Shown: piece after piece, positions 1 to 13,721 of the stretch | How the letters are laid out: the number at the start of each line of letters is the position of its first letter | Position numbering within the stretch: the stretch's first letter is position 1 | Assembly: GCA_013216015.1 (NCBI GenBank) | Contig: JABSOI010000017.1 | Coordinates: 1-64,000 of the forward strand | Direction of reading: 5' to 3' | DNA length: 64,000 bases | DNA from: Alteromonadaceae bacterium | GTDB lineage: Bacteria > Pseudomonadota > Gammaproteobacteria > Enterobacterales > Alteromonadaceae | The notes under the pieces: generated by a model | Databases searched by the model: none | Told to the model about the DNA's origin: nothing | Seen by the model: only the letters and a program-made list of their open reading frames with translations | Position numbers and translations under genes: made by a program

Positions 1-1
1 A

Positions 2-94
2 ACGCCCATATCTAGTAATGTTCATCTTGCACCATTGGATCGCCCTCGCTACGACCCCGTTTCTGGACGGACACTAGTTAAGGTCGCAATATAA
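2..94 (+). CDS. 3' end of an unidentified CDS (partial)
   Basis: An open frame enters from the left edge and ends at TAA 92-94, giving about 30 C-terminal residues that end LVKVAI. The reading frame is open throughout, and the ribosome binding site of the next gene (AAGGAG, 93-98) overlaps its stop codon. That tight coupling suggests it is the preceding gene of the same operon as the dehydrogenase and sugar transporter. The tail is too short for me to assign a family; an enzyme of sugar catabolism is only a guess from context. Confidence 0.5.
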   Translation, partial: TPISSNVHLAPLDRPRYDPVSGRTLVKVAI

Positions 95-107
95 GGAGAA
101 TCATACG

Positions 108-1091
108 GTGACTCAGTTGGTTTCAGGTAAAATTATACGATGGGGGATTGTTAGTACTGGTCGTATTGCAGAGCAATTTTGTCAGGACATGGTATTTGTA
201 CCTAATGGTGAGCTGGTTGCAGTGGCAGCTAGAAAAGATCAGGATGCCAAAAATTTTGCCAGAAAGTTCGATATCCCGAGAGCTTATGAAGGTTATCAAA
301 AGATGTTTGATGATCCTGACATTGATGTGGTTTATGTAGCTACGCCCCATAATATTCATTTTGAAAATGTAGTTGCTGCTTTATCAGCAGGTAAATCGGT
401 GCTTTGTGAAAAGCCAATTACCATCAGTAGTGATGAAATGTTACAACTGTCAACATTAGCAAACGAAAAAGGTTTGTTTTTGATGGAAGCTATGTGGACT
501 TACTTTTTACCCGCAATTATTAAGGCTAAAGCATGGGTAGATGAAGGGAGGATTGGTAAGTTAAAGCACATTAAAGCCGATTTTGGTTACCCTTTACCCT
601 ATAGCAGTGAGCGACGGGAATATAATAGCGAACTGTCTGGTGGCTGTTTACTGGAAATGGGAATTTATCCAATAGCAATTGCCTATTATTTTGCTGAAGA
701 TATTATCAATAATATACAGGTAAAAGCACATCTTGCCGAAAATGGCGTTGAAGATGATTTGGTTATTCTGGCAGAAAGTGGCGAGGTGAAATTAACTCTA
801 GCTACCTCATTTCAATGTAAGTTACAAAATTGGGCTTATATCATTGGTGATGAAGGATATATTGCTATTCCCAATTTTTGGCGGGCTGATCAATGCACTT
901 TACATAAACTTGATGAAGAAATTGCACATTTCAGCAACCAGCGTACTAGTCTGGGATTTAACTTTGAAGCACAAGCCGTTGGTGAAGCCATTATCAATAA
1001 TCATTTAGAACACAATGTCATGACTCACCATACCAGTTATTTATTTCAACAAACGATGGAACAGGTCAAAAAGTTAGTTTTTAGCGAGTAG
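108..1091 (+). CDS. Gfo/Idh/MocA-family NAD(P)-dependent sugar dehydrogenase
   Basis: This 327-residue protein has the two-domain Gfo/Idh/MocA architecture. An N-terminal Rossmann fold carries a variant glycine motif (GIVSTGRIA, residues 13-21), and the family's catalytic EKP motif is at residues 101-103 (CEKPIT). The C-terminal half is the alpha/beta substrate domain. The family oxidises or reduces sugars and cyclic diols with NAD(P); some members are D-xylose dehydrogenases. Next to a sugar symporter and xylan hydrolases, oxidation of xylose or a derivative is a reasonable inference but not proven. The start is GTG 108, with AAGGAG at 93-98. It lies 13 bp after the upstream partial gene and 56 bp before the transporter, so one operon is likely. 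Confidence 0.85.
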   Translation: MTQLVSGKIIRWGIVSTGRIAEQFCQDMVFVPNGELVAVAARKDQDAKNFARKFDIPRAYEGYQKMFDDPDIDVVYVATPHNIHFENVVAALSAGKSVLCEKPITISSDEMLQLSTLANEKGLFLMEAMWTYFLPAIIKAKAWVDEGRIGKLKHIKADFGYPLPYSSERREYNSELSGGCLLEMGIYPIAIAYYFAEDIINNIQVKAHLAENGVEDDLVILAESGEVKLTLATSFQCKLQNWAYIIGDEGYIAIPNFWRADQCTLHKLDEEIAHFSNQRTSLGFNFEAQAVGEAIINNHLEHNVMTHHTSYLFQQTMEQVKKLVFSE

Positions 1092-1147
1092 ATTGTTCCT
1101 GTTTTAACCAAACAACAATAAAAAAAGAAAAGTTAGAGAGTTAGAAT

Positions 1148-2572
1148 ATGCGGGAAAATACTTTATTTATCGTCTTAGTTTGCTGTGTGGCTACCATTGG
1201 TGGTTTTTTATTTGGTTTTGATAGCGGTGTTATCAATGGCACAGTTGACGGGCTTCAATTAGCTTTTAACTCTGACAGTATTGGTACTGGCTTTAATGTA
1301 GCTAGTATGTTGCTTGGTTGTGCTTTTGGCGCCTTTGTTGCCGCACAACTTGCGGATAAATTTGGACGTCGTACCATTTTACTTGTTAGTGCTGTGTTAT
1401 TTATAGTCAGTGCTTGGGGATCTGGAATATCCACCTCATCTTTTGAGTTTATTCTTTATCGTATTATTGGAGGTATCGCTGTGGGTGCAGCCTCAGTTTT
1501 GGCTCCAGCATATATCAGTGAAATTGCTCCTGCAAAATATCGAGGTACTTTGTCATCAGTCCAACAGGTGGCTATCATTTGGGGATTGTTTTCTGCCTTT
1601 GTAAGTAATTATTATCTGGCTGATTTGGCTGGCGCTTCTATTTCCCAATTGTGGATGGGTTTTGAAGCATGGCGTTGGATGTTTTGGATAGAACTTTTAC
1701 CAGCATCATTATTTTTAGTCGCCTTAATATTCATTCCTGAAAGTCCAAGATACTTAGTGTTAAATCAGAAATATACTCAGGCAAAGGCTGTACTGACAAA
1801 ACTTTATGGTGTAGATGAAGGTAATAAAAAGTTTGATGAAATTCGAGGTTCATTAGCGGGTGACAAGCATCAACCAAAGCTGTCAAATTTGCTGGATGGC
1901 AATACCAGAAAGATTAGAAAGATAGTCTGGGTAGGTATTGGTTTAGCGACATTCCAGCAACTTGTAGGTATTAATGTTGTATTCTATTACGGTGCTGTAC
2001 TTTGGCAAGCCGTTGGCTTTTCTGAATCTGACGCGTTATTAATCAACATCATCAGCGGTGCCGTCAGCATTTTGGCCTGTATTATCACTATGTATTTTAT
2101 AGATAAAGTTGGTAGGAAGCCCTTCTTGTTGTTTGGTTCGATTGGTATGGCTGCTTCTTTAGCTGGGTTAGTGATAGCGTTTGCTTCGTCAGATGTTGAT
2201 TTTGATGGTAATTTAATACTTGGTGCAATGGGTACTTTTGCCCTAATTTCTGCCAATGCTTATGTGTTCTTTTTTAATCTCTCCTGGGGGCCTGTAATGT
2301 GGGTAATGCTTGGCGAAATGTTTCCAAACAAAATCAGAGGTTCAGGCTTGGCTGTAAGTGGCTTTGCTCAATGGGGAGCAAATTTCGCCATTACAATGAC
2401 ATTCCCAATTTTTCTCAGCACAATTGGTTTAGCTGCTGCCTATGGTTTTTATACTGTTTGCGCTTGTTTTTCTATTGTCTTTGTTTTGAAGTATATTCAT
2501 GAAACTAAAGGGAAAGAATTAGAGGAAATGCAAGGGTGTGATGATTTTGTCACCGGCCTTAACGAACAATAA
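1148..2572 (+). CDS. MFS sugar porter (xylose/H+ symporter type)
   Basis: This 474-residue, 12-helix inner-membrane protein belongs to the sugar porter branch of the major facilitator superfamily (XylE/GalP-like). Signatures include DKFGRR after helix 2, the PESPRYL motif closing the N-terminal half, the QQLVGINVVFYY helix-7 motif, a second DKVGRKP loop, and HETKGKELEEM at the C-terminus. It should take up a monosaccharide by proton symport. Between the dehydrogenase and the xylan hydrolases, D-xylose released by the GH43 enzyme is the obvious candidate. The gene is codirectional with the dehydrogenase and convergent with the phytanoyl-CoA-dioxygenase-like gene. Confidence 0.9.
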   Translation: MRENTLFIVLVCCVATIGGFLFGFDSGVINGTVDGLQLAFNSDSIGTGFNVASMLLGCAFGAFVAAQLADKFGRRTILLVSAVLFIVSAWGSGISTSSFEFILYRIIGGIAVGAASVLAPAYISEIAPAKYRGTLSSVQQVAIIWGLFSAFVSNYYLADLAGASISQLWMGFEAWRWMFWIELLPASLFLVALIFIPESPRYLVLNQKYTQAKAVLTKLYGVDEGNKKFDEIRGSLAGDKHQPKLSNLLDGNTRKIRKIVWVGIGLATFQQLVGINVVFYYGAVLWQAVGFSESDALLINIISGAVSILACIITMYFIDKVGRKPFLLFGSIGMAASLAGLVIAFASSDVDFDGNLILGAMGTFALISANAYVFFFNLSWGPVMWVMLGEMFPNKIRGSGLAVSGFAQWGANFAITMTFPIFLSTIGLAAAYGFYTVCACFSIVFVLKYIHETKGKELEEMQGCDDFVTGLNEQ

Positions 2573-2648
2573 ATACAATTGCTGATATTTAAGAAAGAAG
2601 TTGGTTTTGCATACTTATTTATTCCTCCTTTCTTTATCTATATATTTA

Positions 2649-3401
2649 TCAATCTCTCTCTTTAAGAACTTTAGCCGTTGAGAACTGGTAAAACATATTA
2701 CGGTAGATACCAATATCGGTAATGTCTTCTGGAGTATCTTTGGGAGCAACTCTGTAATTGGTTGATACTCTATATTGGCCAGTTACAGGTTTAACTTTGT
2801 GGTAACAATGTCCGTGAAGTAACACCAGGCTGCCTTTTCTGGGGCTTAAAGTAACGGCTTTGGATTCATCGAAATATTCTGATTGTGCAGGCAAAATACC
2901 TGATCTATGAGAACCCGGAACCACCAAGGTTTGTCCACCTGATGTGTGTTCATCAATATCCATGGTATACATCAATCTGTTCATATTAAATTTTCCAGGA
3001 TCTGTTGGAAAGCAGTCCTGGTGCCAGGCTTGACCTACAGTGCCCTTTTTTGAAAACATCACCATTGAATATTGTTCATACCATCCGTCACCTAAAATCG
3101 CCTGGGTTAAAGCGATTAGTTTTTTATCTTCACTAACGGCGTTGAAACAAGTAACACCTTCCCGTTGTGGAAACCAAGGGATGACTTCGACTCCTGATTT
3201 TTCGATAAATTCTTCAGTATGCTCAAAATCAGGAGTCATACCAAAATGGTCAATAATTTTTTTGCTGTATTTTTCAACTAAATTGATGTTGAAAAAATTT
3301 TCGATAAGGATAAACCCATCTCGCCAAAATAGTTGAGCGTAAGTGTCTATGTCGTTACTATCTCTGTCGCAACTATTTATGTCGTAATGATCAATGTCCA
3401 T
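2649..3401 (-). CDS. Phytanoyl-CoA dioxygenase (PhyH) family protein
   Basis: The protein has 250 residues from ATG 3401, chosen because GGATGGAG lies just upstream; a longer reading would overlap the GH43 gene. It shows the Fe(II)/2-oxoglutarate dioxygenase fold of the PhyH family: an HxD iron pair at H127/D129 (AWHQD), a distal histidine in the LLHGHCYHKV segment (probably H201), and R211 as a plausible 2-oxoglutarate ligand. It follows the GH43 xylosidase by 16 bp on the same strand and is probably cotranscribed with it. The substrate is unknown. PhyH proteins hydroxylate diverse small molecules, and a role in modifying a sugar, a substituent or a signalling compound is conjecture. Confidence 0.8.
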   Translation of the reverse strand: MDIDHYDINSCDRDSNDIDTYAQLFWRDGFILIENFFNINLVEKYSKKIIDHFGMTPDFEHTEEFIEKSGVEVIPWFPQREGVTCFNAVSEDKKLIALTQAILGDGWYEQYSMVMFSKKGTVGQAWHQDCFPTDPGKFNMNRLMYTMDIDEHTSGGQTLVVPGSHRSGILPAQSEYFDESKAVTLSPRKGSLVLLHGHCYHKVKPVTGQYRVSTNYRVAPKDTPEDITDIGIYRNMFYQFSTAKVLKERD

Positions 3402-3417
3402 TATTTTGACTCCATCC

Positions 3418-5037
3418 TTATTGCTCCATTTCAACATATTCAAAATATTGGAAATCAGCATGTTTTGCCTGACCAGAAAGATCCTGACAAGTCATGCCGA
3501 CAAATGCACCAGTAAAGCAGGGGTGAAACCTAACCGTACTGTTTTCTACATAATCGTCAGATAATATACTCCCATCGAGTACAGGACCTATGCTTTGCCA
3601 AACGGGGTTAGTGTCTATTGCTTCAATTGCGAAACAAAATTGTAATTGAGCACCATTAAAATCGGCTTTAAGATAAACTTTTCCTGCTGCGTTTATCTCA
3701 ATCTTTGTCACCGGTTCTGTTGTATCGTGGTTATCGCAGCTAATAATACTTATGTATCGTTTGTTATCTTCTAAGCCAAAGTCACCACCTGAAATATGTA
3801 AATAGTGATAATGGTTAGTATTGTAATAACAAACCAACCCTGCCATTTGTTGAAAATTGTCCGGCATAAATTCTAGTGCTGTTTGTGATACCGTATGGTG
3901 AGCTTGTACGCGTCTTGCAACCAAACTTTGCCTATGGCAAGAGCTTAATGATTCACGACCGGTTAATCTTAAAAATCCGCCACGTTTGTTTAGGCTAACC
4001 CAATCCTCTGTCATTGGTATGCGTAATGATTGAAAATTAATATCTAGTTTTTTTGATTCGAAATTATCTCGTTCCGGTCGGCTTTTAAATGGGTGGGCAG
4101 GTAAATCTGGTGCCTCAATTTCCATTCGTGCCGCTTTATTGCCGTGAGTTGTGTATGGCCAACCGTTTTTATGCCATTCAATTTTTTCTATTGCAGTTTC
4201 TCTGCCGGTAATACAGCGACCTAGTTTAGTTAATGGTCTGGCGGTTAAAAATACCGCATACCATTCATCATTTTGAGTTTGAATTAAGTCGCCATGACCT
4301 GTTTTTTGCAAATAATTGTCCGGGTCATATTTTGCGGTAATGAATGGGTTGTCTGGATGAACTTCATAAGGGCCGGCTAAAGACTTGGATCGAGCTAGAG
4401 ACATACAGTGTTCGTAGCTGGTTCCACCTTCCGCAGTTAATAAATAGTAAGTGTTATTTTTTTTATAAAGGTGTGGTCCTTCTGTACGGCCATGTTCAGT
4501 TCCATAAAATATGTGTTTTATGGAACCTACGAGTTTTTTCGTTGATTTATTGTATTCCTGTAATATTATGCCGCCAAAAAAAGTGTTGTTTCTATGGTCA
4601 AGGATCATATTAACTAAGTAACCTTTCCCATCATCATCGTGAAACAAAGAAGGATCAAAACCGCTGGAATTTAAAAAAATGGGCGCTGACCACGGACCAG
4701 AAATATCCTGGGAGGTTACTAAATAGTTTGGAGTGTCTTTCCATTGTCCGTCAAAGCTTTTAACATTGGTATAGACAAGATAAAAAGTACCTTCGTGATA
4801 ACTTAACTGGGGGGCCCAGACACCACAGGAATCAGGGATACCCAGCATGTCCAGTTGAGACGTTTTGTTTAATATCTGACCAGTCAACCGCCAGTTGACC
4901 AGATCTCTGGAATGATGTATTTGTACCCCCGGAAACCATTCAAAGGTTGAGGTGACAATGTAATAGTCATCATCTACTCGTATTATGTTTGGATCTGGGT
5001 TGAATCCTTTTAAAATAGGATTGATTATCTTATTCAT
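3418..5037 (-). CDS. GH43 family beta-xylosidase
   Basis: This 539-residue protein has the five-bladed GH43 catalytic domain followed by a C-terminal beta-sandwich typical of xylosidases. The likely catalytic residues are D15 (GFNPDPNI), D128 (GFDPS, pKa modulator) and E186 (RTEGPHLY, general acid). No signal peptide is visible, so it probably acts in the cytoplasm or periplasm on xylo-oligosaccharides that have already been taken up. Some marine GH43 enzymes hydrolyse beta-1,3-xylo-oligosaccharides. With the GH26 enzymes alongside, that specificity is the best inference, but beta-1,4-xylosidase or arabinofuranosidase activity cannot be excluded. It lies 49 bp downstream of the cell-bound GH26-like gene. 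Confidence 0.88.
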   Translation of the reverse strand: MNKIINPILKGFNPDPNIIRVDDDYYIVTSTFEWFPGVQIHHSRDLVNWRLTGQILNKTSQLDMLGIPDSCGVWAPQLSYHEGTFYLVYTNVKSFDGQWKDTPNYLVTSQDISGPWSAPIFLNSSGFDPSLFHDDDGKGYLVNMILDHRNNTFFGGIILQEYNKSTKKLVGSIKHIFYGTEHGRTEGPHLYKKNNTYYLLTAEGGTSYEHCMSLARSKSLAGPYEVHPDNPFITAKYDPDNYLQKTGHGDLIQTQNDEWYAVFLTARPLTKLGRCITGRETAIEKIEWHKNGWPYTTHGNKAARMEIEAPDLPAHPFKSRPERDNFESKKLDINFQSLRIPMTEDWVSLNKRGGFLRLTGRESLSSCHRQSLVARRVQAHHTVSQTALEFMPDNFQQMAGLVCYYNTNHYHYLHISGGDFGLEDNKRYISIISCDNHDTTEPVTKIEINAAGKVYLKADFNGAQLQFCFAIEAIDTNPVWQSIGPVLDGSILSDDYVENSTVRFHPCFTGAFVGMTCQDLSGQAKHADFQYFEYVEMEQ

Positions 5038-5086
5038 GATATTTGCTCTGTTGGTACTTCAATTATTTTATAAAGATTAATTCGTG

Positions 5087-6295
5087 TTAATAATTACTAT
5101 TTTGAACCCAACGTTCATGGTTATTGACGTGTTCTAACCATTTATTTTTAATGTATTTATTTGCTTGTACTCGGCTGTCCCCCCAGTTCCCTCCATTGCA
5201 ACCGTTTTGTCCGGCTGGAATGCCTGGTTTGCATTGCCACATTGGTTGAGTTTCCCAATGGGTGTTTATGTAAGCAACAGCTCTGATAATATCTTTATTT
5301 TTATCAATAAAATCAAAAAATGGTTGATACCAGGCTTGCCAAATTTGTTCACCTGTAAATGGGGATTGATCATTAAGTTGAATAAAACTGCGGGTAAGAG
5401 CACCTGTTCTATAACCTTGGGGAGCTGCTTCAGCGATCATTACCGGTTTGTTATGCTTGCGGGCAAAAGCTAATGTTATTTCCTGGGTATCTGCAGGAGA
5501 TATTGGTGGTACATAATTCCATTGAGACAAATCCCGATAAAATACCGACATAGAAACCCAATCTACGACATCGTCACCGGGATACCAGTTTTGCAGATGT
5601 TGCTTTGAACGAAAATCATAGTTTTCATTACCGTAGCTGTCTGCCCATGCAGCTGTTTGCCATACGGTAGCTATATTATCTGCGTGATTAAGTTTGATTT
5701 TTTTTGCAATTCGTTGAAAAGCTAATTTATAATTTTCAGGTGTGTAACAATTCCATGGACCATCAAACTCATAGCCAATTCTCAAGAATACTTTCCGTGG
5801 CGCGAGTGATTTAAAATGGTTGATCATTAAGTCAATATTTTGGTCGTATTCACCTTTAGCTATATTTGATTCATGGCTTTCCTGGTTGCAGTTGTCGAAA
5901 GCTAAACCTACGGCAAGTACTGCATTTGGTGATTCTTTTAATGTTTTGGAAAAGTCTACATCACCTGCTTTCCAATTTGCAGATTCAAAAACAGCAAACA
6001 AAGTTTTAGCTGGGTCTTTATGTTTCATTTGAGTATAAAGCGTAATACCTTCGATGTTATCTTCAGGCACAGCAGAGATATAGGCGCTAATGGTGTCAGA
6101 ATCTTGCCCTATAAATAACAGCGTCTTACCATCATTAGGGGTTAGTGGTCCTGTGATTATTTGTTTATTAATTTTCTTGTTTGCCGAATTTACATTCGTA
6201 TCAGCTTTTGGATTAAAGCACACCAAAACTGATAAAAAGCTAATAATACCCATGGATAATGGAATAAATTTCAAAGGTAGCCTCTCATAGTTCAT
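5087..6295 (-). CDS. GH26-type glycosidase, probable cell-associated beta-1,3-xylanase
   Basis: This 402-residue protein resembles GH26. A general acid/base is seen at E176 (LRIGYEFDGPW) and a nucleophile at E289 (VMIAEAAPQG), with conserved Trp/Asp segments between (DWVSMSVFYRDL) and a C-terminal INTHWETQPMW stretch. Residues about 11-27 are hydrophobic and may be a signal peptide or anchor; the Cys at 26 is not in a convincing lipobox. It shares the fold signature and the TQPMW/TQQPQW end with the larger GH26 enzyme at 7.9 kb but has no binding modules, suggesting it acts on soluble oligosaccharides near the cell. A LacI-type operator lies 12 bp upstream of its start. No strong ribosome binding site is seen, so ATG M15 is an alternative start. 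Confidence 0.75.
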   Translation of the reverse strand: MNYERLPLKFIPLSMGIISFLSVLVCFNPKADTNVNSANKKINKQIITGPLTPNDGKTLLFIGQDSDTISAYISAVPEDNIEGITLYTQMKHKDPAKTLFAVFESANWKAGDVDFSKTLKESPNAVLAVGLAFDNCNQESHESNIAKGEYDQNIDLMINHFKSLAPRKVFLRIGYEFDGPWNCYTPENYKLAFQRIAKKIKLNHADNIATVWQTAAWADSYGNENYDFRSKQHLQNWYPGDDVVDWVSMSVFYRDLSQWNYVPPISPADTQEITLAFARKHNKPVMIAEAAPQGYRTGALTRSFIQLNDQSPFTGEQIWQAWYQPFFDFIDKNKDIIRAVAYINTHWETQPMWQCKPGIPAGQNGCNGGNWGDSRVQANKYIKNKWLEHVNNHERWVQNSNY

Positions 6296-6306
6296 TTTAA
6301 TAAATC

Positions 6307-6320
6307 TGTTAGCGTTAACA
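6307..6320. promoter_or_regulatory. LacI-family operator, site 1
   Basis: The sequence TGTTAGCGTTAACA is a near-perfect palindrome with the central CG typical of LacI-family operators. It sits 12 bp upstream of the GH26-like start codon, so binding would block that minus-strand operon. It shares TGNTAGCGNTAACA with the sites at 6527 and 10442. Confidence 0.7.
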
Positions 6321-6711
6321 TTTTCTATGTAAAGTTATCAATTGTCAATAACAGTATAAAATTTATTAGTTGAAAGTTGTAAAAGAGTAGGTGACAGATA
6401 ATCTTGGATCATTGATCTATAAATTAGTATGTATATAAATTAAATATTAAATTTCTTGATTTTAATGGTTTATATCGTAGGTGGGTTGTTTTTTATTCAA
6501 TTAGTCTTGTTTTTGTGAAAATGTAATGATAGCGTTAACATAGTAAGGTTTGACGTAAGGTGTTAATTATCTCATTCATCGTTAATTTATATGAGTTGGC
6601 GGTTTCTATTTATTATCTTTATTAATTAATTGTGAAACAAAATTTCAACTACAAGTCGTTTGAAACTAGCTTAGTGACACAAAGGAATGGTGTTTCATCG
6701 GAGTGAATAAT
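6321..6711. other. Divergent control region between the GH26 operon and the LacI gene
   Basis: About 390 bp of AT-rich, noncoding DNA separates the minus-strand GH26-GH43-PhyH operon from the plus-strand regulator. Apart from the two operators at its left end and near 6530, I see no open frame and no convincing RNA. The ribosome binding site CGGAG at 6699-6703 belongs to the regulator. Confidence 0.6.
6527..6540. promoter_or_regulatory. LacI-family operator, site 2
   Basis: TGATAGCGTTAACA differs from site 1 at one position. It lies about 170 bp upstream of the regulator start. Paired with site 1 (220 bp apart, centre to centre), it could allow looping or autoregulation. Confidence 0.65.
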
Positions 6712-7749
6712 ATGAGTAAACATACAAAAGCAAAGATAAAAGATGTAGCTGAATTATCTGATGTCTCGATGATGACTGTTTCGAGAGTATTGAATAATGA
6801 TGACAAAGTGTCAGACAAGACCAGAAAGAAAGTGATGGATGCGGCTGAAACTTTAAATTATCAGCCCAATGTATCTGCGCGGAGACTAGCTAGCAACAAG
6901 TCTTTTTTTCTTGGTTTGTTATACGATAATCCAAGTGCTTCCTATGTTAGTCAATTTTTGCTGGGCGTATTAAAACGCTGTAGAGCTAGTGGTTATCATC
7001 TGGTTATTGATGAAGTTGATGAAAATATAGAAAGTACGCTAAATTCTGTAAAAGATATTATCAATGTAACTCAGGTAGATGGCATGATTTTGTTGCCCCC
7101 TGTCTGTGATAGACGTGAAATACTCGAACTCCTCATCTCAAATAAGATACCTTTTGTCAGGGTATCACCTGATACACAAATTAACTTAGCGCCTTATATT
7201 TGTATGGATGATTATCAAGCTGCGTTTGAGTTAACGGAAAAGTTAATTAAGCTAGGGCATAAACAAATTGCCCATATTATTGGGGATATTAAGCAAGGAA
7301 GTAGTCGTTTACGATATCAAGGCTATTTAGATGCATTACGATCAAATCAAATTAATATCCCACCTCAATATATTGAACAGGGTAGTTTCACTTATAAGTC
7401 AGGGTTAGCAGCCGCCAGTAAATTGCTATCTTTAGAAGAAAGACCAACAGCTATTTTTGCAAGTAATGACGATATGGCTGCCGCGACAATATCTGTGGCC
7501 CATATGAAAAAAATAGATGTACCTGATGAACTTACCGTTGTCGGCTTCGATGATACACAAATTGCGACAACAATATGGCCCCGTATTTCCACGGTCAGGC
7601 AACCAATTATGGAAATGGCTGATTTGGCGACGAAAATGCTTGTCTCAGGTAAATTTGACGACCTGTCAAAAGTCAAAGCTCATAATTTCAGACATGTTTT
7701 AGATTTTGAAATTGTAATAAGAGAATCAAGCCGATCTCTGGTTCCTTGA
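6712..7749 (+). CDS. LacI-family transcriptional regulator of the xylan locus
   Basis: The protein has 345 residues from ATG 6712. That start is preferred over GTG 6703 because CGGAG lies eight bases upstream of it and ends at the GTG. The N-terminal helix-turn-helix is classical (KIKDVAELSDVSMMTVSRVL, then a hinge helix with SARRLASNK). The rest is a periplasmic-binding-protein-like sugar sensor domain with the usual GFDD and ISTVRQP motifs. It is expected to repress the locus and release on binding a sugar such as xylose or a beta-1,3-xylo-oligosaccharide. Two matching operators lie upstream and a third precedes the di-haem gene, so its target set can be proposed from sequence. Confidence 0.88.
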   Translation: MSKHTKAKIKDVAELSDVSMMTVSRVLNNDDKVSDKTRKKVMDAAETLNYQPNVSARRLASNKSFFLGLLYDNPSASYVSQFLLGVLKRCRASGYHLVIDEVDENIESTLNSVKDIINVTQVDGMILLPPVCDRREILELLISNKIPFVRVSPDTQINLAPYICMDDYQAAFELTEKLIKLGHKQIAHIIGDIKQGSSRLRYQGYLDALRSNQINIPPQYIEQGSFTYKSGLAAASKLLSLEERPTAIFASNDDMAAATISVAHMKKIDVPDELTVVGFDDTQIATTIWPRISTVRQPIMEMADLATKMLVSGKFDDLSKVKAHNFRHVLDFEIVIRESSRSLVP

Positions 7750-7802
7750 GGTCTTCGGTGTTGAAGATGAAAATATATTTTTTTGTACAAGATATATAAT
7801 CT

Positions 7803-7822
7803 GAGCTTTTTTATAAAAGCTC
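7803..7822 (+). terminator. Hairpin after the LacI gene
   Basis: A perfect 8-bp stem GAGCTTTT/AAAAGCTC with a 4-base loop follows the regulator stop by 53 bp and is followed by TATTTT. It may end the regulator transcript before the GH26-CBM31 gene. The stem is AT-rich, so termination may be partial. Confidence 0.4.
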
Positions 7823-7861
7823 TATTTTGCAGATTTTACTCTGCTAAGAGGGGATATAAAC

Positions 7862-10198
7862 ATGATAAATATAAATACAACAATGAATATCAAGAATTTC
7901 CTGGCTATGGTGGCACTAACCTACATATGCGCCAGCCAGGCTTTTGCGGTTGAGAAGCCAGCCATTCCTGTTGATGGTGAACGTTTTTTTATTTTGGGAC
8001 AAGATCAACAGTCAATCCTGGATTATATGGCTGACAACTCTTTACCTCGACCTCATGGTTTTACCAGCTATACGACTTTAACGCGAGGAGCGACTGAACA
8101 AGTAACTAATTACTGTTTTAAGGGACTTGATGGTCTTAAAGATCTTGATAACTACAATTCAGATTCTGCTGAGGGTTGTGCCGATAGTGAACGAAGAAAC
8201 CAATGGGGCTCTGGTGTACAAAATGCGCAATGGTTGATTGAAACTTATCAACCAGAAGTGGTTTCTATCGGTATGTTTTGCCCGGGTAATAATCAAGCTG
8301 TCGGGGTTTACCAAAATGGTAGTCATGATGATCTACTTACTGAATTGGCTGATTTTTTTAAATTATATCAAGACACCCATTTTTTCCTGAGAACTTGTTA
8401 TGAGTTTAACGGCGATGCTCACGGCCTTAGTTTTGATAGCTTTCGTGGTATTTATAAGCATGTGGTTAGTTATTTAAATTCTCAAGGGGTGACTAATGTC
8501 GCCCATGTCTGGCAGTCTGATGCTTATCATGGCACAGGTCGTTCAACCAGCGCGTTAGGAAATATCGAACAAGGTTATTGGCCTGGAATACAATATGTTG
8601 ATTGGGTTGGGGTTTCTCAATTTAGCAGTGATATAACCGAGGAAGCAAGTATTGCTGAAGCAGAAGGTTTACCTTTGTTTATTGCTGAAGCTACTGTGCA
8701 TGGTGATTTAGGGGTGCAATATGACTTTTCTTTACCTTTTAATAGCAGCGCGTCGCATGCTCAAGGTCAGAGTAACCCGGTTACAGCGATAAATAATTTA
8801 ACCTGGTTTACTGATAAAAATGCTGAGATCATGCGTGTTTCGACTAAGGCCTGGCATTACATCAATGCCAATTGGACACAACAGCCACAGTGGGAAAATT
8901 CTGCTGATCAGGCGGGTGCTAATTTCTTCAAATATACTAATTCGCAGGTTGAGAAAAGTGCTGAGGTCAAGGCCTATTTCAGTGATTTTGTCTCATCTGC
9001 AAATGGTTTTATTCTGGCTGGTGATGGTGGCGGTGATGGCGGGGGTGATGATGTTGAAACTAATAATGGTCCGGTGATTTCTAACTGTACTTTATCCCCC
9101 GGTAGTAATATTAATTTAGGTGACGAGCTAAGCTTAAGTTGCGATATTTCAGATGCACCTGAAGGCGTTAATACCGTAGATTTTAGTGTAAATGGTATTA
9201 GTTATGCCAGCCAAAGCTCAGGGGAGGCGAGTTATTCATGGTCAGTGGTGAGCACTGATTTACAGCTTGGCAGTAATAGTTTAGTCGTTACAGCAGTAGA
9301 TAATAGTGGTGCAAGCTCACAAAGTATTCATTCAGTTGAAGTGAGCTCTGGTGAAGTTGTTACTCCTACCGAAGAATTTGGTGCTAGTTATGTAGATGAT
9401 AACACCATGCGAATTTACCACGTTGATAATGGTTGGAGTGCTGGTTTTCATTACCTATGTGTTAATTCGGATTGCCGAACTACAATCCGTCAGGATGGCT
9501 TATTTTATCGGGATGTTTCAGCAGTATTAGGTCAAAGCTATGATATTGAGTTTAAAGTGCAAGATAACGCAATAGGACAATATATTATCAGCAAGCAAGT
9601 TACTTTCACCAGCGGTACTACTCCTCCTGTTGAACCGCCTGTAAACAGTGATCCAAGTGTTAGTGTTTCTTTATCTGGTGGAGAGTTAACTGCTGGTGAT
9701 AATTTAGTGATAAACGCCAGTGCAACAGATACAGATGGCTCAATCGTCAGTGTTGCCTTTTATGTTACTGCGCCAGGTGGCAGTGAGCAGTTACTGGTAG
9801 TCGATACAGTAGTTCCTTTTTCTGCAACAGTCACCAGTGTTATTGCCGGTAGTTATCAAATAAGGGTTGTTGCCAGTGATGATGATGGCGCAACAGGACA
9901 AGATAGCGCTTCAATCACGGTTAGCCCGGGTGATGTTTCAACACCGGAAGATGAATTTGGGCTTAGTTACGTTAACGATAATACAATGCGTATTTATCAT
10001 CTTGATAGTGGTTGGACAGGCAGTTGGAACTACTTGTGTGTAAATAGTGATTGTCGAGTGGGTACATGGGGAAATGGCCAGTTTTATCGAGATGTCTCTG
10101 GCGTGCTGGGTCAAAGTTATAACCTTGAATTTAAGGTACAAGATAACAGTACAGGCCAATATATAGTGACTAAATTCGGCGTGTTATTCACGCAATAA
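7862..10198 (+). CDS. Secreted GH26 beta-1,3-xylanase with two CBM31-like modules
   Basis: This 778-residue protein begins with a Sec signal peptide (cleavage likely after QAFA, residue 29). A GH26 catalytic domain spans about 35-375, with acid/base E181 (LRTCYEFNG) and nucleophile E276 (FIAEATVHG). A Gly/Asp linker (about 387-397) leads to an Ig-like domain (402-497), a CBM31-like module (505-583), a second Ig-like domain (594-690) and a second CBM31-like module (697-778). Each binding module has a YVxDNTMRIYH start, a YLCVNSDC cysteine pair and a VQDNxxGQYI end. GH26 plus CBM31 is the known architecture of marine bacterial beta-1,3-xylanases, hence the call. AGAGGGG lies upstream of ATG 7862. 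No LacI-type operator is visible directly upstream. Confidence 0.85.
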   Translation: MININTTMNIKNFLAMVALTYICASQAFAVEKPAIPVDGERFFILGQDQQSILDYMADNSLPRPHGFTSYTTLTRGATEQVTNYCFKGLDGLKDLDNYNSDSAEGCADSERRNQWGSGVQNAQWLIETYQPEVVSIGMFCPGNNQAVGVYQNGSHDDLLTELADFFKLYQDTHFFLRTCYEFNGDAHGLSFDSFRGIYKHVVSYLNSQGVTNVAHVWQSDAYHGTGRSTSALGNIEQGYWPGIQYVDWVGVSQFSSDITEEASIAEAEGLPLFIAEATVHGDLGVQYDFSLPFNSSASHAQGQSNPVTAINNLTWFTDKNAEIMRVSTKAWHYINANWTQQPQWENSADQAGANFFKYTNSQVEKSAEVKAYFSDFVSSANGFILAGDGGGDGGGDDVETNNGPVISNCTLSPGSNINLGDELSLSCDISDAPEGVNTVDFSVNGISYASQSSGEASYSWSVVSTDLQLGSNSLVVTAVDNSGASSQSIHSVEVSSGEVVTPTEEFGASYVDDNTMRIYHVDNGWSAGFHYLCVNSDCRTTIRQDGLFYRDVSAVLGQSYDIEFKVQDNAIGQYIISKQVTFTSGTTPPVEPPVNSDPSVSVSLSGGELTAGDNLVINASATDTDGSIVSVAFYVTAPGGSEQLLVVDTVVPFSATVTSVIAGSYQIRVVASDDDGATGQDSASITVSPGDVSTPEDEFGLSYVNDNTMRIYHLDSGWTGSWNYLCVNSDCRVGTWGNGQFYRDVSGVLGQSYNLEFKVQDNSTGQYIVTKFGVLFTQ

Positions 10199-10236
10199 CG
10201 CTAATGAACCATTCGTAGTTAGAAAGGGCAGATAAC

Positions 10237-10270
10237 AATAATGACGACCTTAGGGTTGTCATTATTTGTT
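10237..10270 (+). terminator. Terminator after the GH26-CBM31 gene
   Basis: A 13-bp stem AATAATGACGACC / GGTTGTCATTATT (one G-U pair, short loop) lies about 40 bp beyond the stop and is followed by a T-rich TGTTTC stretch. Confidence 0.6.
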
Positions 10271-10691
10271 TCTAGTCGTCAAATACCACCTGTACCAATC
10301 TCATTAACTAACCTCATTAAGAAATTGGCATTACTCATATTTATCATCAAAGAATAGATATTTGATATTTTAGAAATACGGATAAATGTTCAATAACTTG
10401 AAATAAATCATTTTAACTGCTAGTCTGTTTTTTGGTCGATATGGTAGCGGTAACACGCTTATGTTTGTGAACATTTTCGGGCGTAAGGGGTTAGACATCA
10501 GTAATTAATGGCAGGAAGCGAGAGGTTATAAAATTGGAACTGGTTCTAAGTCAATTATTAGAATGTCTATTCATTTCAATATGATCCAGATGAATTCTGG
10601 AGATTGATTTGAAGAGATTTTTGTTATTAACTTAATTTATAGGGCGTTACCGAATGTTAAGTTGTCGGTATTAACCTGTGTAGGAAGGAAA
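10271..10691 (+). promoter_or_regulatory. Upstream region of the di-haem gene, with LacI-type operator at 10442-10455
   Basis: This is about 420 bp of noncoding DNA. The sequence TGGTAGCGGTAACA at 10442-10455 matches the shared TGNTAGCGNTAACA motif of the two operators near the LacI gene, putting the di-haem gene in the same regulon. AGGAAGG at 10682-10688 is the ribosome binding site. I see no other gene in the stretch. Confidence 0.6.
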
Positions 10692-13600
10692 ATGAAAACA
10701 AGAAAAATAAACAGCTGGCTGGCATTGGCATTGATATTTCTTTGTACTGTCAATGCTAGCCAAGCCTTTGCCGATGAACAGGGGATATTTGTTGATGGCA
10801 GTACCGCAACCCTGTTTTTTAACGATCAGGGCTGGAATGGCAGTTGGAACTATATGTGTATTAACGCCAACTGTGTTGCCGGCAGTAAAGTAGGTAATCA
10901 ATGGCAGCGTGAGGTCAGTAGCTTTAATATTGTGATTGGTAATAGCTATGACATTCAACTTAAAGTGCAAGATAACAATACAGGCCAATATATTTCACCT
11001 ACTTATAATGTGGTCGCTTATGATGCTGGCGGATCAACTCCTCCTCCTGTAAACGTTGCACCAGTAGTTGCTATAGCATCACCAGGAGGGTTAACAGAAG
11101 GTGATAGCACCACTATTACCGTAACAGCAACGGATAGCGATGGTACTATCGCAACTGTTGCTTTTTATGTGACAGCACCAGGGGCGAGTGAGCAATACCT
11201 TGCCAGTGATTCATCATCACCGTATCAATTTACGATTGCAGATCTTATTGCTGGTACTTATAACGTACGTGCAGTAGCTACAGATGACGATGCTGACACC
11301 ACTAGCGCGACTAGCAGCTTTGATGTTGCTGACATAGAGGTTCCTGAAGATCCGCAGGATCCGGTTGACCCTCCAACCAGTACTGCTGATTATGGTATAG
11401 AGGTTAGCGGCGGTACGGCAACGGTGTTTTTCGAAGATCAGGGGTGGAACGGTAGCTGGAACTATATTTGTGTTTCTGATAATTGTGTTGCCGGTAGTAA
11501 ATCGGGCACTCGCTGGCAGCGGGATGTGAGTAGCATGAACATTGTTTCAGGTAATACTTATGTTATTCAGCTTAAAATTCAAGACAACAGCACTGGACAA
11601 TACATTTCACCACAGCATTCTGTAGTGGCAGGTAGTACAGGTAATGAAACGCCACCAGAAGATCCACCGGAAAATCCGCCAACTGAAGGTAATGAAGCGC
11701 CAGTGGTAAGTGTTGCTGGTACCGATGGATTAACTGAGGGTGATAATACTACGGTTGTGGTAACGGCTAGTGATAGTGATGGATCTATTGCCAGTGTTGA
11801 ACTCTTTGTTACTGCGCCGAATATGTCAGAGCAATCGGTAGGTACAGTGATGTCGACGCCATATCAGTTTAACCTGACTAACGTAGTTGCCGGTACATAT
11901 TTTTTGCGTGCTGTTGCCACTGATAATATTGGCGACCAAGCACAAGCCACTGACTCGTTTTTGGTTAGCGGTGGTGGTGGCGGAACAGGTGGCGGCGGTG
12001 GCGGTTCTCCTGATTTTGATCATCTGGACTGGACCTCAAATTCACTAACCGAGCATAATGTTGGTCCTGCACCAAGAGCTAATCCTCCATCAGCGATAGC
12101 AACACCAATGAATGGGACTCTACCAACTTCGCATGGATTTGCTTTCGATATAGAGGGTAGTACGTTGACCTGGCGATGGGGAGAATTTATTGTTAAACAA
12201 GTCGGTGATTCCGGATTGGAAATGCATTGCTCAGTTGATGATAATGCTACGTTTACTAAGGTTGATGTTATTAATTCTCAGGCGAGTATTCCTTGTCAGG
12301 GGGATTACAATTACTTTTTCCGTTATCTGCATCCTAACAAGTTAAATGATGATCCGGGTTCTCAGTGGATTTTCACTGGCTTATTTACAACTGCAGGGTC
12401 GCGGGTTGACGTGAATAATTACACTCCATTTGTTGATGGTTCTGCGAACTGGATGAGATTCCGTCATCCTATTACTCAAGACGGTACTACTGCTGCTGTA
12501 CTTGATGCGCAGCATAACAATGATCGCTTGAGAAATTTAGACAGATATACTATTTGGGTAGAAGATTCGCCAGGTAATGTTCAGTTTAAAGGACAGATTA
12601 ACGGTAATGTTTTACGTAACGAAGCTATGCGTAGACAAGGTTCGCCAAACGGTCAGCAATTTTTTGCCGCAGGTGTCAGCGGCTTGGGTTGGGGTAACTT
12701 GTTTAGCTATGGTCAAGTGATCAGTTTTGAATTTACAGCGGTAGCAGGTGCTACGGGCGCGCAAACGTATAATGATTTCAGTCATTATGTGGTTGGTTGT
12801 GGCTGGTGTGGTAAGTATGGTGATCCACGCTTGAACTCGGCAGGTAAAGCTTCAACTAGTCAGGAGTTTTCTGATGCTGGTGGATATATTGACCTTGAGC
12901 ATAATGCTATCTTCACCCAGCCTTTAGTGACAATCCATAAAGAAGATATGATTGATGACTTCTTACTGGGTCATCACTTGTTCCACGGTGTTGATCCTAA
13001 TAAAACGCGCTCATCTACCTTTGATGATCCTGATGCACAAATAGGTTCAACCACTTGTGGTAATTGTCATTTCCGCGATGGTCGAGGCTCTGAAATTGTT
13101 ACTACGGCAAAAGGGCCGCGTATTGCGCCGCCAATTTATGGTCTTTCGTTGCTTGACCATATGGTTGGTAGAGAAGCAGGCTACACATGGGATGGCTCTG
13201 TAGCAGAGATTTCTGATCAGGTCAGTAATGCTTTATTGGCAGATCACGGTGTTGATTCAGCAGAGTTGCCGGGTAGAGTAGTTGAGTTGTTGACGAGTTA
13301 TGTAACAAGCTTAACGGTTCCTTCCCGTAAGCCGGGTTCTTATGATTTACCGGGCGTTACCGAAGGTGATGTGTTATTTAATCAAGTAGGTTGTAGCAGC
13401 TGTCATACGCCGGTACAACATACCAGTTCAACGGCACCAACTCATCTGAGAGATTTAGAGATCCGACCGTATTCTGATATGAAGCTACATGATTTGGGTA
13501 GCGGTAACTTTAGAACTCCACCGCTTTGGGGCTTAGGTCATAACTTGCATTTGCTTGAGCGAAATAACCGTGCAGTGTTATATATGCATGACGGTTCAGC

Positions 13601-13721
13601 GACTACATTAGAGCAAGCTATCAGTGCTCATGGTGGTGAAGCACAGGCTGTGATTAATAGTTATAACCAATTGAGTAGTGCGGATAAAACGGCATTGCAA
13701 AATTTTGTTAAAACGCTTTAG
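10692..13721 (+). CDS. Secreted CBM31-CBM31 / di-haem cytochrome (DHOR, DUF1111-like) fusion
   Basis: The protein has 1009 residues from ATG 10692 (AGGAAGG just upstream; a TTG at 10662 is less likely). A signal peptide ends near QAFA (27). Then come a CBM31-like module (28-110, YMCINANC), an Ig-like domain (120-214), a second CBM31-like module (233-313, YICVSDNC), a second Ig-like domain (334-426) and a polyglycine linker (427-439). An unrecognised domain spans about 440-735. The di-haem region (735-1009) has haem c sites CGNCH (789-793) and CSSCH (901-905). DHOR signatures include FRDGRG, RIAPPIYGLSLL, RPYSDMKLHDLG, RTPPLWGLG, YMHDGSATTLEQAI and HGGEAQA. The two haem sites are only about 112 residues apart, closer than in typical DHOR proteins. 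It is probably exported and haem-loaded in the periplasm; a redox role on beta-1,3-xylan is inferred. Confidence 0.8.
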   Translation: MKTRKINSWLALALIFLCTVNASQAFADEQGIFVDGSTATLFFNDQGWNGSWNYMCINANCVAGSKVGNQWQREVSSFNIVIGNSYDIQLKVQDNNTGQYISPTYNVVAYDAGGSTPPPVNVAPVVAIASPGGLTEGDSTTITVTATDSDGTIATVAFYVTAPGASEQYLASDSSSPYQFTIADLIAGTYNVRAVATDDDADTTSATSSFDVADIEVPEDPQDPVDPPTSTADYGIEVSGGTATVFFEDQGWNGSWNYICVSDNCVAGSKSGTRWQRDVSSMNIVSGNTYVIQLKIQDNSTGQYISPQHSVVAGSTGNETPPEDPPENPPTEGNEAPVVSVAGTDGLTEGDNTTVVVTASDSDGSIASVELFVTAPNMSEQSVGTVMSTPYQFNLTNVVAGTYFLRAVATDNIGDQAQATDSFLVSGGGGGTGGGGGGSPDFDHLDWTSNSLTEHNVGPAPRANPPSAIATPMNGTLPTSHGFAFDIEGSTLTWRWGEFIVKQVGDSGLEMHCSVDDNATFTKVDVINSQASIPCQGDYNYFFRYLHPNKLNDDPGSQWIFTGLFTTAGSRVDVNNYTPFVDGSANWMRFRHPITQDGTTAAVLDAQHNNDRLRNLDRYTIWVEDSPGNVQFKGQINGNVLRNEAMRRQGSPNGQQFFAAGVSGLGWGNLFSYGQVISFEFTAVAGATGAQTYNDFSHYVVGCGWCGKYGDPRLNSAGKASTSQEFSDAGGYIDLEHNAIFTQPLVTIHKEDMIDDFLLGHHLFHGVDPNKTRSSTFDDPDAQIGSTTCGNCHFRDGRGSEIVTTAKGPRIAPPIYGLSLLDHMVGREAGYTWDGSVAEISDQVSNALLADHGVDSAELPGRVVELLTSYVTSLTVPSRKPGSYDLPGVTEGDVLFNQVGCSSCHTPVQHTSSTAPTHLRDLEIRPYSDMKLHDLGSGNFRTPPLWGLGHNLHLLERNNRAVLYMHDGSATTLEQAISAHGGEAQAVINSYNQLSSADKTALQNFVKTL

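Follow-up and report, generated by a model that had tools for sequence, protein, structure and literature searches.

What does a di-haem cytochrome domain do when it is joined, in one predicted secreted protein, to modules for binding beta-1,3-xylan? The question is raised by a gene at positions 10692-13721 (+ strand) of a 64,000-nucleotide stretch from an Alteromonadaceae bacterium (assembly GCA_013216015.1, contig JABSOI010000017.1, positions 1 to 64,000 of the forward strand); the whole stretch is referred to here as the window and the product of the gene as the window protein. An earlier note had described this product as a single chain consisting of a signal peptide, two copies of carbohydrate-binding module (CBM) family 31, Ig-like spacers and a di-haem end of the DHOR type with both CxxCH motifs. 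The Pfam matches and the haem motifs confirm this observation, and the interpretation that the note attached to it is partly supported. Sequence establishes the domain make-up, the two haem sites and the residues that are conserved, as well as the locus and a family that recurs in other genomes. The likeliest single reading, which we hold tentatively and at a little short of an even chance, is that the window protein is a secreted di-haem c-type oxidoreductase located on beta-1,3-xylan, which would oxidise the polymer and act together with a xylanase of glycoside hydrolase (GH) family 26. The parts of the protein are as follows.

10692..13721, + strand: CBM31x2-Big_7x2-middle-compact DHOR protein, 1009 aa, predicted secreted (translation, Pfam)
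10692..10772, + strand: putative signal peptide, residues 1-27, cut after ...SQAFA (by eye)
10785..10994, + strand: CBM31 module 1 (PF11606, 54.9 bits)
11061..11273, + strand: Ig-like Big_7 domain 1, residues 124-194 (PF17957)
11370..11612, + strand: CBM31 module 2 (PF11606, 54.2 bits)
11721..11996, + strand: Ig-like Big_7 domain 2, about residues 344-435 (second Pfam Big_7 stretch; limits by eye)
12006..12983, + strand: middle domain with the C513/C535 pair (alignment of relatives)
12894..13718, + strand: compact di-haem DHOR domain, residues 735-1009 (Pfam, hhalign, haem spacing)

The gene is a real open reading frame of 1009 aa with an ATG start (the program-made list of reading frames puts the start at a TTG 30 bases upstream of the ATG), and no lipobox was seen by eye at the N-terminus of the product. 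AlcCBM31 (PF11606) matches in two stretches with E=9.6e-28; the whole protein scores 96.7 bits against a cut-off of 25, and each module is above the cut-off on its own. For module 2 there is also a match, with E=1.1e-8, to 2cov, a CBM31 structure from a beta-1,3-xylanase; the alternative of generic Ig-like folds is not borne out. The family of these modules and the neighbourhood of the gene suggest that they anchor the protein to beta-1,3-xylan, as had been supposed. Big_7 likewise matches in two stretches (E=5.8e-15). The DHOR match (PF06537) covers residues 858-1009 with E=6.3e-24 and 84.7 bits against a cut-off of 22, and involves profile positions 334-499 only; CCP_MauG (PF03150; CCP, cytochrome c peroxidase) matches residues 785-855, over haem 1, with E=4.4e-5 and 24.6 bits, under its cut-off of 25.6. 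Comparison of compact and ordinary DHORs (defined below) with hhalign gave 327 aligned columns at a probability of 100%, in agreement with the proposed relationship of the di-haem end to DHOR. A scan of the window protein against NCBIfam returned no match, and YceI had no match in the Pfam scan.

Residues ~440-735 form a conserved domain that was overlooked in the earlier note and that aligns in relatives of equal haem spacing. Its last part (YGQ..FE..Y..G.G) aligns with the region preceding haem 1 in ordinary DHORs, C513 and C535 are kept in 21 of 22 aligned compact members, and the middle part is strongly diverged in a protein from Neiella (L059, 25% identity; labels with L and G denote our loci and genomes). 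The same domain also contains a CGWC cysteine pair (residues 703 and 706, window 12798-12809); the pair is missing from most compact relatives, with a cysteine at 706 in 3 of the 22 compact rows.

The two CxxCH motifs required of a DHOR are present at residues 789-793 and 901-905. Their spacing is 112 in the window protein and 112-115 in its type, compared with 222-298 in the 42 rows (40 distinct) of ordinary DHORs that have the two motifs. Because the usual spacing is not found, we assign the window protein to a compact branch rather than to the typical DHORs; the branch is a predicted relative of the CCP/MauG proteins, and its named members come from Pseudomonadota, Bacteroidota and Acidobacteriota. 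The principal sites are listed with their conservation.

13056..13070, + strand: haem motif 1, CGNCH, residues 789-793 (kept in 22/22 compact members)
13392..13406, + strand: haem motif 2, CSSCH, residues 901-905 (kept in 22/22 compact members)
13188..13190, + strand: W833 in TWDG, putative counterpart of the CCP FWDGR tryptophan (22/22; weak alignment to 1iqc)
13587..13589, + strand: H966 in YMHDG, resembling the MauG motif (22/22; motif described for RoxA in PMC6311187)
13629..13631, + strand: H980, proposed distal ligand of haem 2 (22/22; weak 1iqc alignment, Met there)

Residues H761, H793, W833, D851, H905, M930, H966 and H980 are all invariant in the 22 compact members, and such invariance across phyla points to selection on the haem site. 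In the weak alignment with the peroxidase 1iqc, H980 is paired with a methionine, taken here as an axial ligand to the electron-transfer haem; the histidine that 1iqc carries in the loop following haem motif 1 has no conserved equivalent in the family.

The compact branch is recovered in both di-haem trees. In the tree of 53 rows, ten compact rows with CBM31 lie on one side of a branch (99/98), and in the tree of 67 rows all 22 compact rows are found together (100/99). Left out of both trees were L115 and L063 (incomplete), L061 (a near-copy of L060) and the split L065 frame; the second tree also omits L008, L024 and L034 (partial or duplicates), the L125 row was cut at residue 705 to exclude its C-terminal CBM31 modules, and the Neiella L059 row is a long branch whose exact position is unsure. 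In the di-haem domain the nearest relatives of the window protein are the proteins of Microbulbifer, Spongiibacteraceae and Sulfidibacter, with 61-65% identity, and this kinship suggests transfer between phyla. One Microbulbifer member of the compact branch is without CBM31 and has a CBM6 match below threshold. Further CBM31-DHORs occur in genome G911 and in Aliagarivorans with a haem spacing of 134-144, and in Sulfidibacter with a spacing of 230 and the CBM31 pair at the C-terminus; these two types sit at two other places in the tree, on starred branches, which makes three lineages in all. Four changes are needed to explain the CBM31 label on the 67-row tree, and they can be read as three gains and one loss, with gains and losses interchangeable on the unrooted tree.

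A separate tree of CBM31 modules, with 19 short rows, few starred branches and a warning of long branches meeting, places the DHOR modules (9 rows) and the GH26 modules (10 rows, two of them from a Neiella chain that holds both GH26 and DHOR) on separate branches (96/94). L062 and both L068 proteins are absent from this tree because the motif filter missed them, and later-fetched loci were also left out. The two modules of the window protein are 39% and 35% identical to the first GH26 copy. The statement of the earlier note that the adjacent GH26 enzyme has the same CBM31-like module is therefore correct at the level of the family and not at that of the branch, and the idea that the DHOR simply borrowed its CBM31 from the neighbouring GH26 gene is disfavoured by the tree.

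CBM31 is rare: a sample of 369 genomes from the whole class gave one genome with it and a sample of 395 from the family gave two, the window's own included, and the window's genome has four copies, two in the window protein and two in the neighbouring GH26 gene. For the middle domain the counts are 1 of 369 and 1 of 395 in these two samples, and 3 of 283 genomes in the order to which Microbulbifer belongs, the last count omitting a fourth match (G854; E=9.6e-4, 55 residues within a 293-aa frame) that was taken as chance. A search of 84,980 species genomes with two CBM31 peptide patterns yielded ten CBM31 loci, from Neiella, three Flammeovirga, Acanthopleuribacter, Microbulbifer, two Aliagarivorans, Sulfidibacter and a Spongiibacteraceae metagenome-assembled genome; this is a lower bound. 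G034 and G911, known from other searches and perhaps not part of that collection, were not among the returns. In nine of the ten loci one frame joins CBM31 (by Pfam or tblastn) and two haem motifs; in the tenth, Acanthopleuribacter, a frame with CBM31 and the middle domain ends just before haem motif 1, 200 bases from the contig end. Six exact peptide patterns of the whole window protein returned no relative among genome contigs. A tblastn search of plasmids with the middle and di-haem part gave 77 records, none covering more than 80% of the query and all below 60% identity, and the ten matches listed are Thermus di-heme oxidoreductase family proteins with 28-32% identity.

In the ten CBM31 genomes and G911 (the latter found via its middle domains), Pfam detects 53 CBM31 modules in 42 reading frames. 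Since these 11 genomes were chosen for CBM31 or the middle domain, the tally is not a random sample. Two haem motifs are present in 27 of the 42 frames (20 with a Pfam DHOR match and 7 called by haem motifs plus tblastn similarity), three of them with GH26 in the same chain, so the fusion that the earlier note proposed to look for in other genomes does recur, which counts in favour of the reading given at the outset. Twelve frames are without haem motifs (10 GH26-like, one GH81 and one trypsin-like), and three were counted neither way: one in G820, the broken-off Acanthopleuribacter frame and a split frame in Aliagarivorans taiwanensis. G911 (loci L114-L119 and L128-L134), with 4.5 Mb, contains 21 CBM31 modules and nine CBM31-DHOR proteins, and is apparently a beta-1,3-xylan specialist.

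Some individual frames merit mention in their own right. The trypsin-like protein (L133:3999-6419) may be a protease aimed at beta-1,3-xylan by its CBM31 module. A Sulfidibacter protein (L125:8656-12012) combines GH81, a beta-1,3-glucanase family, with two CBM31 modules and adjoins a CBM31-DHOR. The second CBM31-DHOR of Aliagarivorans taiwanensis (L065:1572-5144) is split by a frame break and is intact in A. marinus.

Redox proteins with CBMs for cellulose are proposed to feed oxidative enzymes such as lytic polysaccharide monooxygenases (LPMOs), and the earlier note had drawn this analogy while seeing no LPMO gene in the window. AA10 (PF03067) was not found in the whole genome of the window (99.9% complete, a figure that applies to this genome alone), in 7 of 10 CBM31 relatives or in G911, which gives 9 of 12 genomes altogether; it is present in three relatives, the genomes of L063, L064 and L067. 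An LPMO electron relay is accordingly unlikely, and the analogy carries over poorly. GH26 relatives were found in 12 of 12 genomes searched, a set outside which G911 stands (GH26-like frames were seen in its fetched stretches). Of the two co-occurrences that had been proposed for checking, that with GH26 is thus found and that with AA10 is not found in most genomes, and both outcomes favour an oxidation of the polymer in company with GH26.

The surroundings of the gene are consistent with such company. The neighbouring genes and putative operator sites in the window are these.

7862..10198, + strand: GH26-Big-CBM31-Big-CBM31 beta-1,3-xylanase (Pfam for CBM31/Big; similarity of the catalytic part)
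6703..7749, + strand: LacI-family regulator (Pfam)
5087..6295, - strand: second GH26-like enzyme (no Pfam match; similar to the first GH26)
3418..5037, - strand: GH43 xylosidase (Pfam)
2649..3461, - strand: PhyH-like 2-oxoglutarate/Fe dioxygenase (Pfam; homologue in the Microbulbifer locus)
1148..2572, + strand: MFS sugar transporter (Pfam; Microbulbifer counterpart)
108..1091, + strand: GFO/IDH/MocA dehydrogenase (Pfam; Microbulbifer counterpart)
6307..6320, no strand: operator-like palindrome TGTTAGCGTTAACA, 11 bases before the second GH26 gene
6527..6540, no strand: operator-like site, near-copy with 1 mismatch, between the second GH26 gene and lacI
10442..10455, no strand: operator-like site TGGTAGCGGTAACA, 236 bases before the CBM31-DHOR gene

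The catalytic part of the GH26 enzyme at 7862-10198 shares 75% identity with its Neiella counterpart and 61% with the one in Microbulbifer. On one contig of Microbulbifer mangrovi there is a comparable cluster (identities: MFS 30%, GFO 58%, GH26 61%, PhyH 56%, GH43 42%), which also holds a compact DHOR, this one without CBM31; the Microbulbifer CBM31-DHOR lies on a different contig, near a LacI homologue. The comparable cluster indicates that the haem protein is part of a beta-1,3-xylan locus and not a chance neighbour. Since the operator-like pattern had been loosened until it covered the third site of the window, it can be tested in other loci but not in the window itself. In 75 further CBM31/GH26/compact-DHOR loci (665,718 bases, some overlapping) we found 6 sites against 0.07 expected from 30 simulations, and in 53 ordinary-DHOR loci there were 0 sites, which adds support for an action together with GH26. 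Two of the six lie 31 and 421 bases before a Neiella GH26-CBM31-DHOR gene. Another precedes the Sulfidibacter gene for the CBM31-DHOR of spacing 230, by 112 bases, and a fourth a further GH26 gene, the third in the window's own genome, by 197 bases; the remaining two are distant from a start (691 and 1062 bases). The LacI protein may bind these sites, and the DHOR protein is probably made together with the GH26 beta-1,3-xylanase under this LacI-type regulator.

The fusion has a precedent for beta-1,3-xylan, whereas the earlier note knew of none. Xyn65 of Gilvimarinus xylanilyticus (PMC9638140, 2022) has the architecture GH26-CBM31-CBM6-Big-DHOR; it was detected in the secretome, and the enzyme was characterised as a 1,3-xylanase. 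Its authors tested hydrolysis and offered oxidoreductase activity or mere binding as guesses for the DHOR. Like the window protein, Xyn65 combines CBM31, Ig-like and DHOR domains in one secreted protein of a 1,3-xylan degrader, but it has its own GH26 and a CBM6, whereas in the window the DHOR protein and the adjacent GH26 are encoded by different genes, and the former carries a pair of CBM31 modules; the comparison is by described architecture only. In the available part of PMC9638140 we found no treatment of the DHOR family, haem spacing, phylogeny or LPMO absence, and in the mostly open-access literature searched this was the only paper found on CBM31-cytochrome or DHOR-CBM/laminarin fusions. 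The fusion itself has thus been reported, and what was not found in print is the compact cross-phylum DHOR family without LPMO and its recurrence.

Cbp2D and Cbp2E of Cellvibrio japonicus and TERTU_3803 of Teredinibacter (PMC8981238, PMC12542752, PMC10916295) are CBM-bearing redox proteins with c-type haem domains. Growth of Cellvibrio on insoluble cellulose requires Cbp2D/E, for which a role that goes beyond the reduction of LPMOs has been proposed, and LPMOs can accept electrons from the cytochrome domain of a CBM-bearing protein (PMC8981238). Cbp2D/E would be the cellulose counterpart of the window protein by function, but these proteins have single-haem X183/X132 domains, to which Cbp2D adds YceI-like ones, with LPMO present in Cellvibrio, unlike the di-haem DHOR on CBM31 in a genome in which no AA10 was found. 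RoxA and RoxB (PMC6311187) resemble our proposal as secreted di-haem enzymes that act on a solid polymer and have distant structural kinship to CCPs; in RoxA the C-terminal haem is bis-His, a MauG motif is present and there is no peroxidase activity. They differ in substrate (rubber) and in the distance between haem motifs (199), and no sequence match to the window family was found, so the resemblance is one of analogy. Fungal Hybrid B haem peroxidases (PMC5571214) likewise fuse a haem peroxidase domain to a carbohydrate-binding domain, but belong to the peroxidase-catalase superfamily and are not di-haem c-type proteins.

If the window protein does oxidise the polymer, it might work as follows. 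The two CBM31 modules would anchor it to insoluble beta-1,3-xylan; haem 2, with ligands H905 and probably H980, would be the electron-transfer haem, linked through W833 to haem 1, which would have H793 as ligand and an open site taking O2 or H2O2. The target of oxidation would be the very polysaccharide to which the protein is bound (its chain, the ends of the chain or material attached to it), which would thereby be loosened for GH26, a role parallel to that of LPMOs on cellulose and chitin by other chemistry, as RoxA has for rubber. Several observations weigh against this proposal. DHOR is annotated as a putative peroxidase family, and the module scan described below covered DHORs with frames of at least 600 aa. 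The family profile matches solved di-haem proteins weakly (5c2v, the hydrazine synthase gamma subunit, E=0.0032 as the best; 1iqc, E=0.019), so that the claims on ligands and the open site stand on thin alignments. No rubber oxygenase is among the 10 PDB matches up to E=1; sequence homology to RoxA was not found in this way, and RoxA is best regarded as an analogue rather than a detected relative. AlphaFold2 models from alignments of 10 and 12 rows are poor (mean predicted local distance difference test scores of 39.4 and 46.9), a Foldseek search of PDB with the second gave a best match of only E=0.8, and no conclusion here rests on these models. Finally, G034, from the window's family, has GH26-CBM31x2 without a middle-domain DHOR, so the CBM31-DHOR association is strong and not universal, and the main text of a 2025 paper on the beta-1,3-xylan pathway does not mention the words oxidoreductase, cytochrome, peroxidase, CBM or LPMO; together they indicate that an oxidative step is not indispensable.

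Four other readings have to be set against oxidation of the polymer. The protein might be a surface peroxidase with a protective role, which would be seated on the wall of the alga and destroy H2O2 from wounded algae or from the metabolism of the bacterium, sparing the xylanases without acting on sugar. The family label, the sub-threshold CCP_MauG match and the retained CCP-like WDG tryptophan all fit this reading, but it is not obvious why protection should call for a substrate-specific CBM in three lineages, a fusion with GH26 in one chain or nine such proteins in one genome, and we consider this reading rather unlikely. Less probable again is a sugar dehydrogenase that oxidises reducing ends or released oligosaccharides and passes the electrons to an extracellular acceptor. 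Such an activity would be well placed beside endo-xylanase genes, where new ends form, and the locus has a GFO/IDH/MocA dehydrogenase gene, a family that includes sugar dehydrogenases; against it, no partner acceptor is evident among the annotated neighbours at 1-10691, and we know of no DHOR that acts on sugars.

The remaining two readings have slight chances. A DHOR end that is degenerate or structural, which would only bind xylan or stabilise the protein, corresponds to the second hypothesis in PMC9638140, and is in keeping with the report there that Xyn65 made in E. coli hydrolyses xylan, with no haem test found in the available part of that paper. The invariance of both haem motifs and of H761, W833, D851, M930, H966 and H980 in 22 of 22 compact members speaks against degeneration and makes this reading very unlikely. 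The recombinant Xyn65, moreover, may have had an inactive haem part, since it was made in E. coli, in which RoxA and MauG could not be made; the authors of PMC6311187 blame a different maturation route for cytochromes with the MauG motif. The least probable reading, to which we give hardly any weight, is that the protein donates electrons to an LPMO, the role proposed for Cbp2D in Cellvibrio. The reduction of LPMOs by a CBM-borne cytochrome domain (PMC8981238) and the AA10 genes in 3 of 10 relatives can be cited for it, but it is contradicted for the window's genome unless an LPMO outside AA10 is involved, and AA10 was missing from the returns for 9 of 12 genomes.

Oxidation of the polymer gains some support from the ordinary DHORs of relatives of the window's genome. 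We scanned all 24 DHOR matches with open frames of at least 600 aa, the window's own excluded and several of them near-copies. CBM, GH or F5/8C modules are present in 21 of the 24 (three with F5/8C only), and CBM56, GH16 or GH81, which we take to be beta-1,3-glucan modules, in 10 of the 24; CBM6/35 fusions also occur. These proteins share with the window protein the combination of a di-haem family with polysaccharide modules, but have a haem spacing of 222-263, a separate tree branch and no CBM31. A beta-1,3-linked backbone would be the theme common to the CBM31 and CBM56 sets. Beta-1,3-linked polysaccharides form triple helices, and it is conceivable, though we would not call it probable, that polysaccharide-anchored DHORs are an LPMO-independent class of oxidative enzymes that open such polymers by di-haem O2/H2O2 chemistry, with the CBM31 branch directed to beta-1,3-xylan and the CBM56/GH16/GH81 proteins to beta-1,3-glucan. 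If so, marine bacteria would attack beta-1,3-xylan, and perhaps laminarin-type glucans, by haem-based oxidation rather than with a copper LPMO, which would fill a gap in the turnover of algal carbon and provide redox enzymes from a new source. That relatives occur in three phyla suggests that an oxidative step in the breakdown of algal polysaccharides has been overlooked, and the Xyn65 DHOR, left unexplained in 2022, becomes testable with named species and many candidate proteins to hand.

Minor observations concern other parts of these loci. In G034, three adjacent genes (L102:5506-8798) are without Pfam match, one of them with a single haem motif, CQECH. A small cysteine-rich motif (C-P-x-S-H-P and further cysteines), seen by eye in GH26 proteins and a neighbour (L060:16424, L134:5043, L102:7695-8798), is perhaps an undescribed binding module. 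Lipoprotein_15 (PF03640, secreted repeat) occurs among ordinary as well as compact DHOR proteins, where it frequently separates the sugar-binding modules from the DHOR end, and is possibly a shared functional partner of DHORs; it is present in 11 of the 24 loci L035-L058, and also in L059, L060, L062, L065, L066, L114, L117, L119, L120 and L123.

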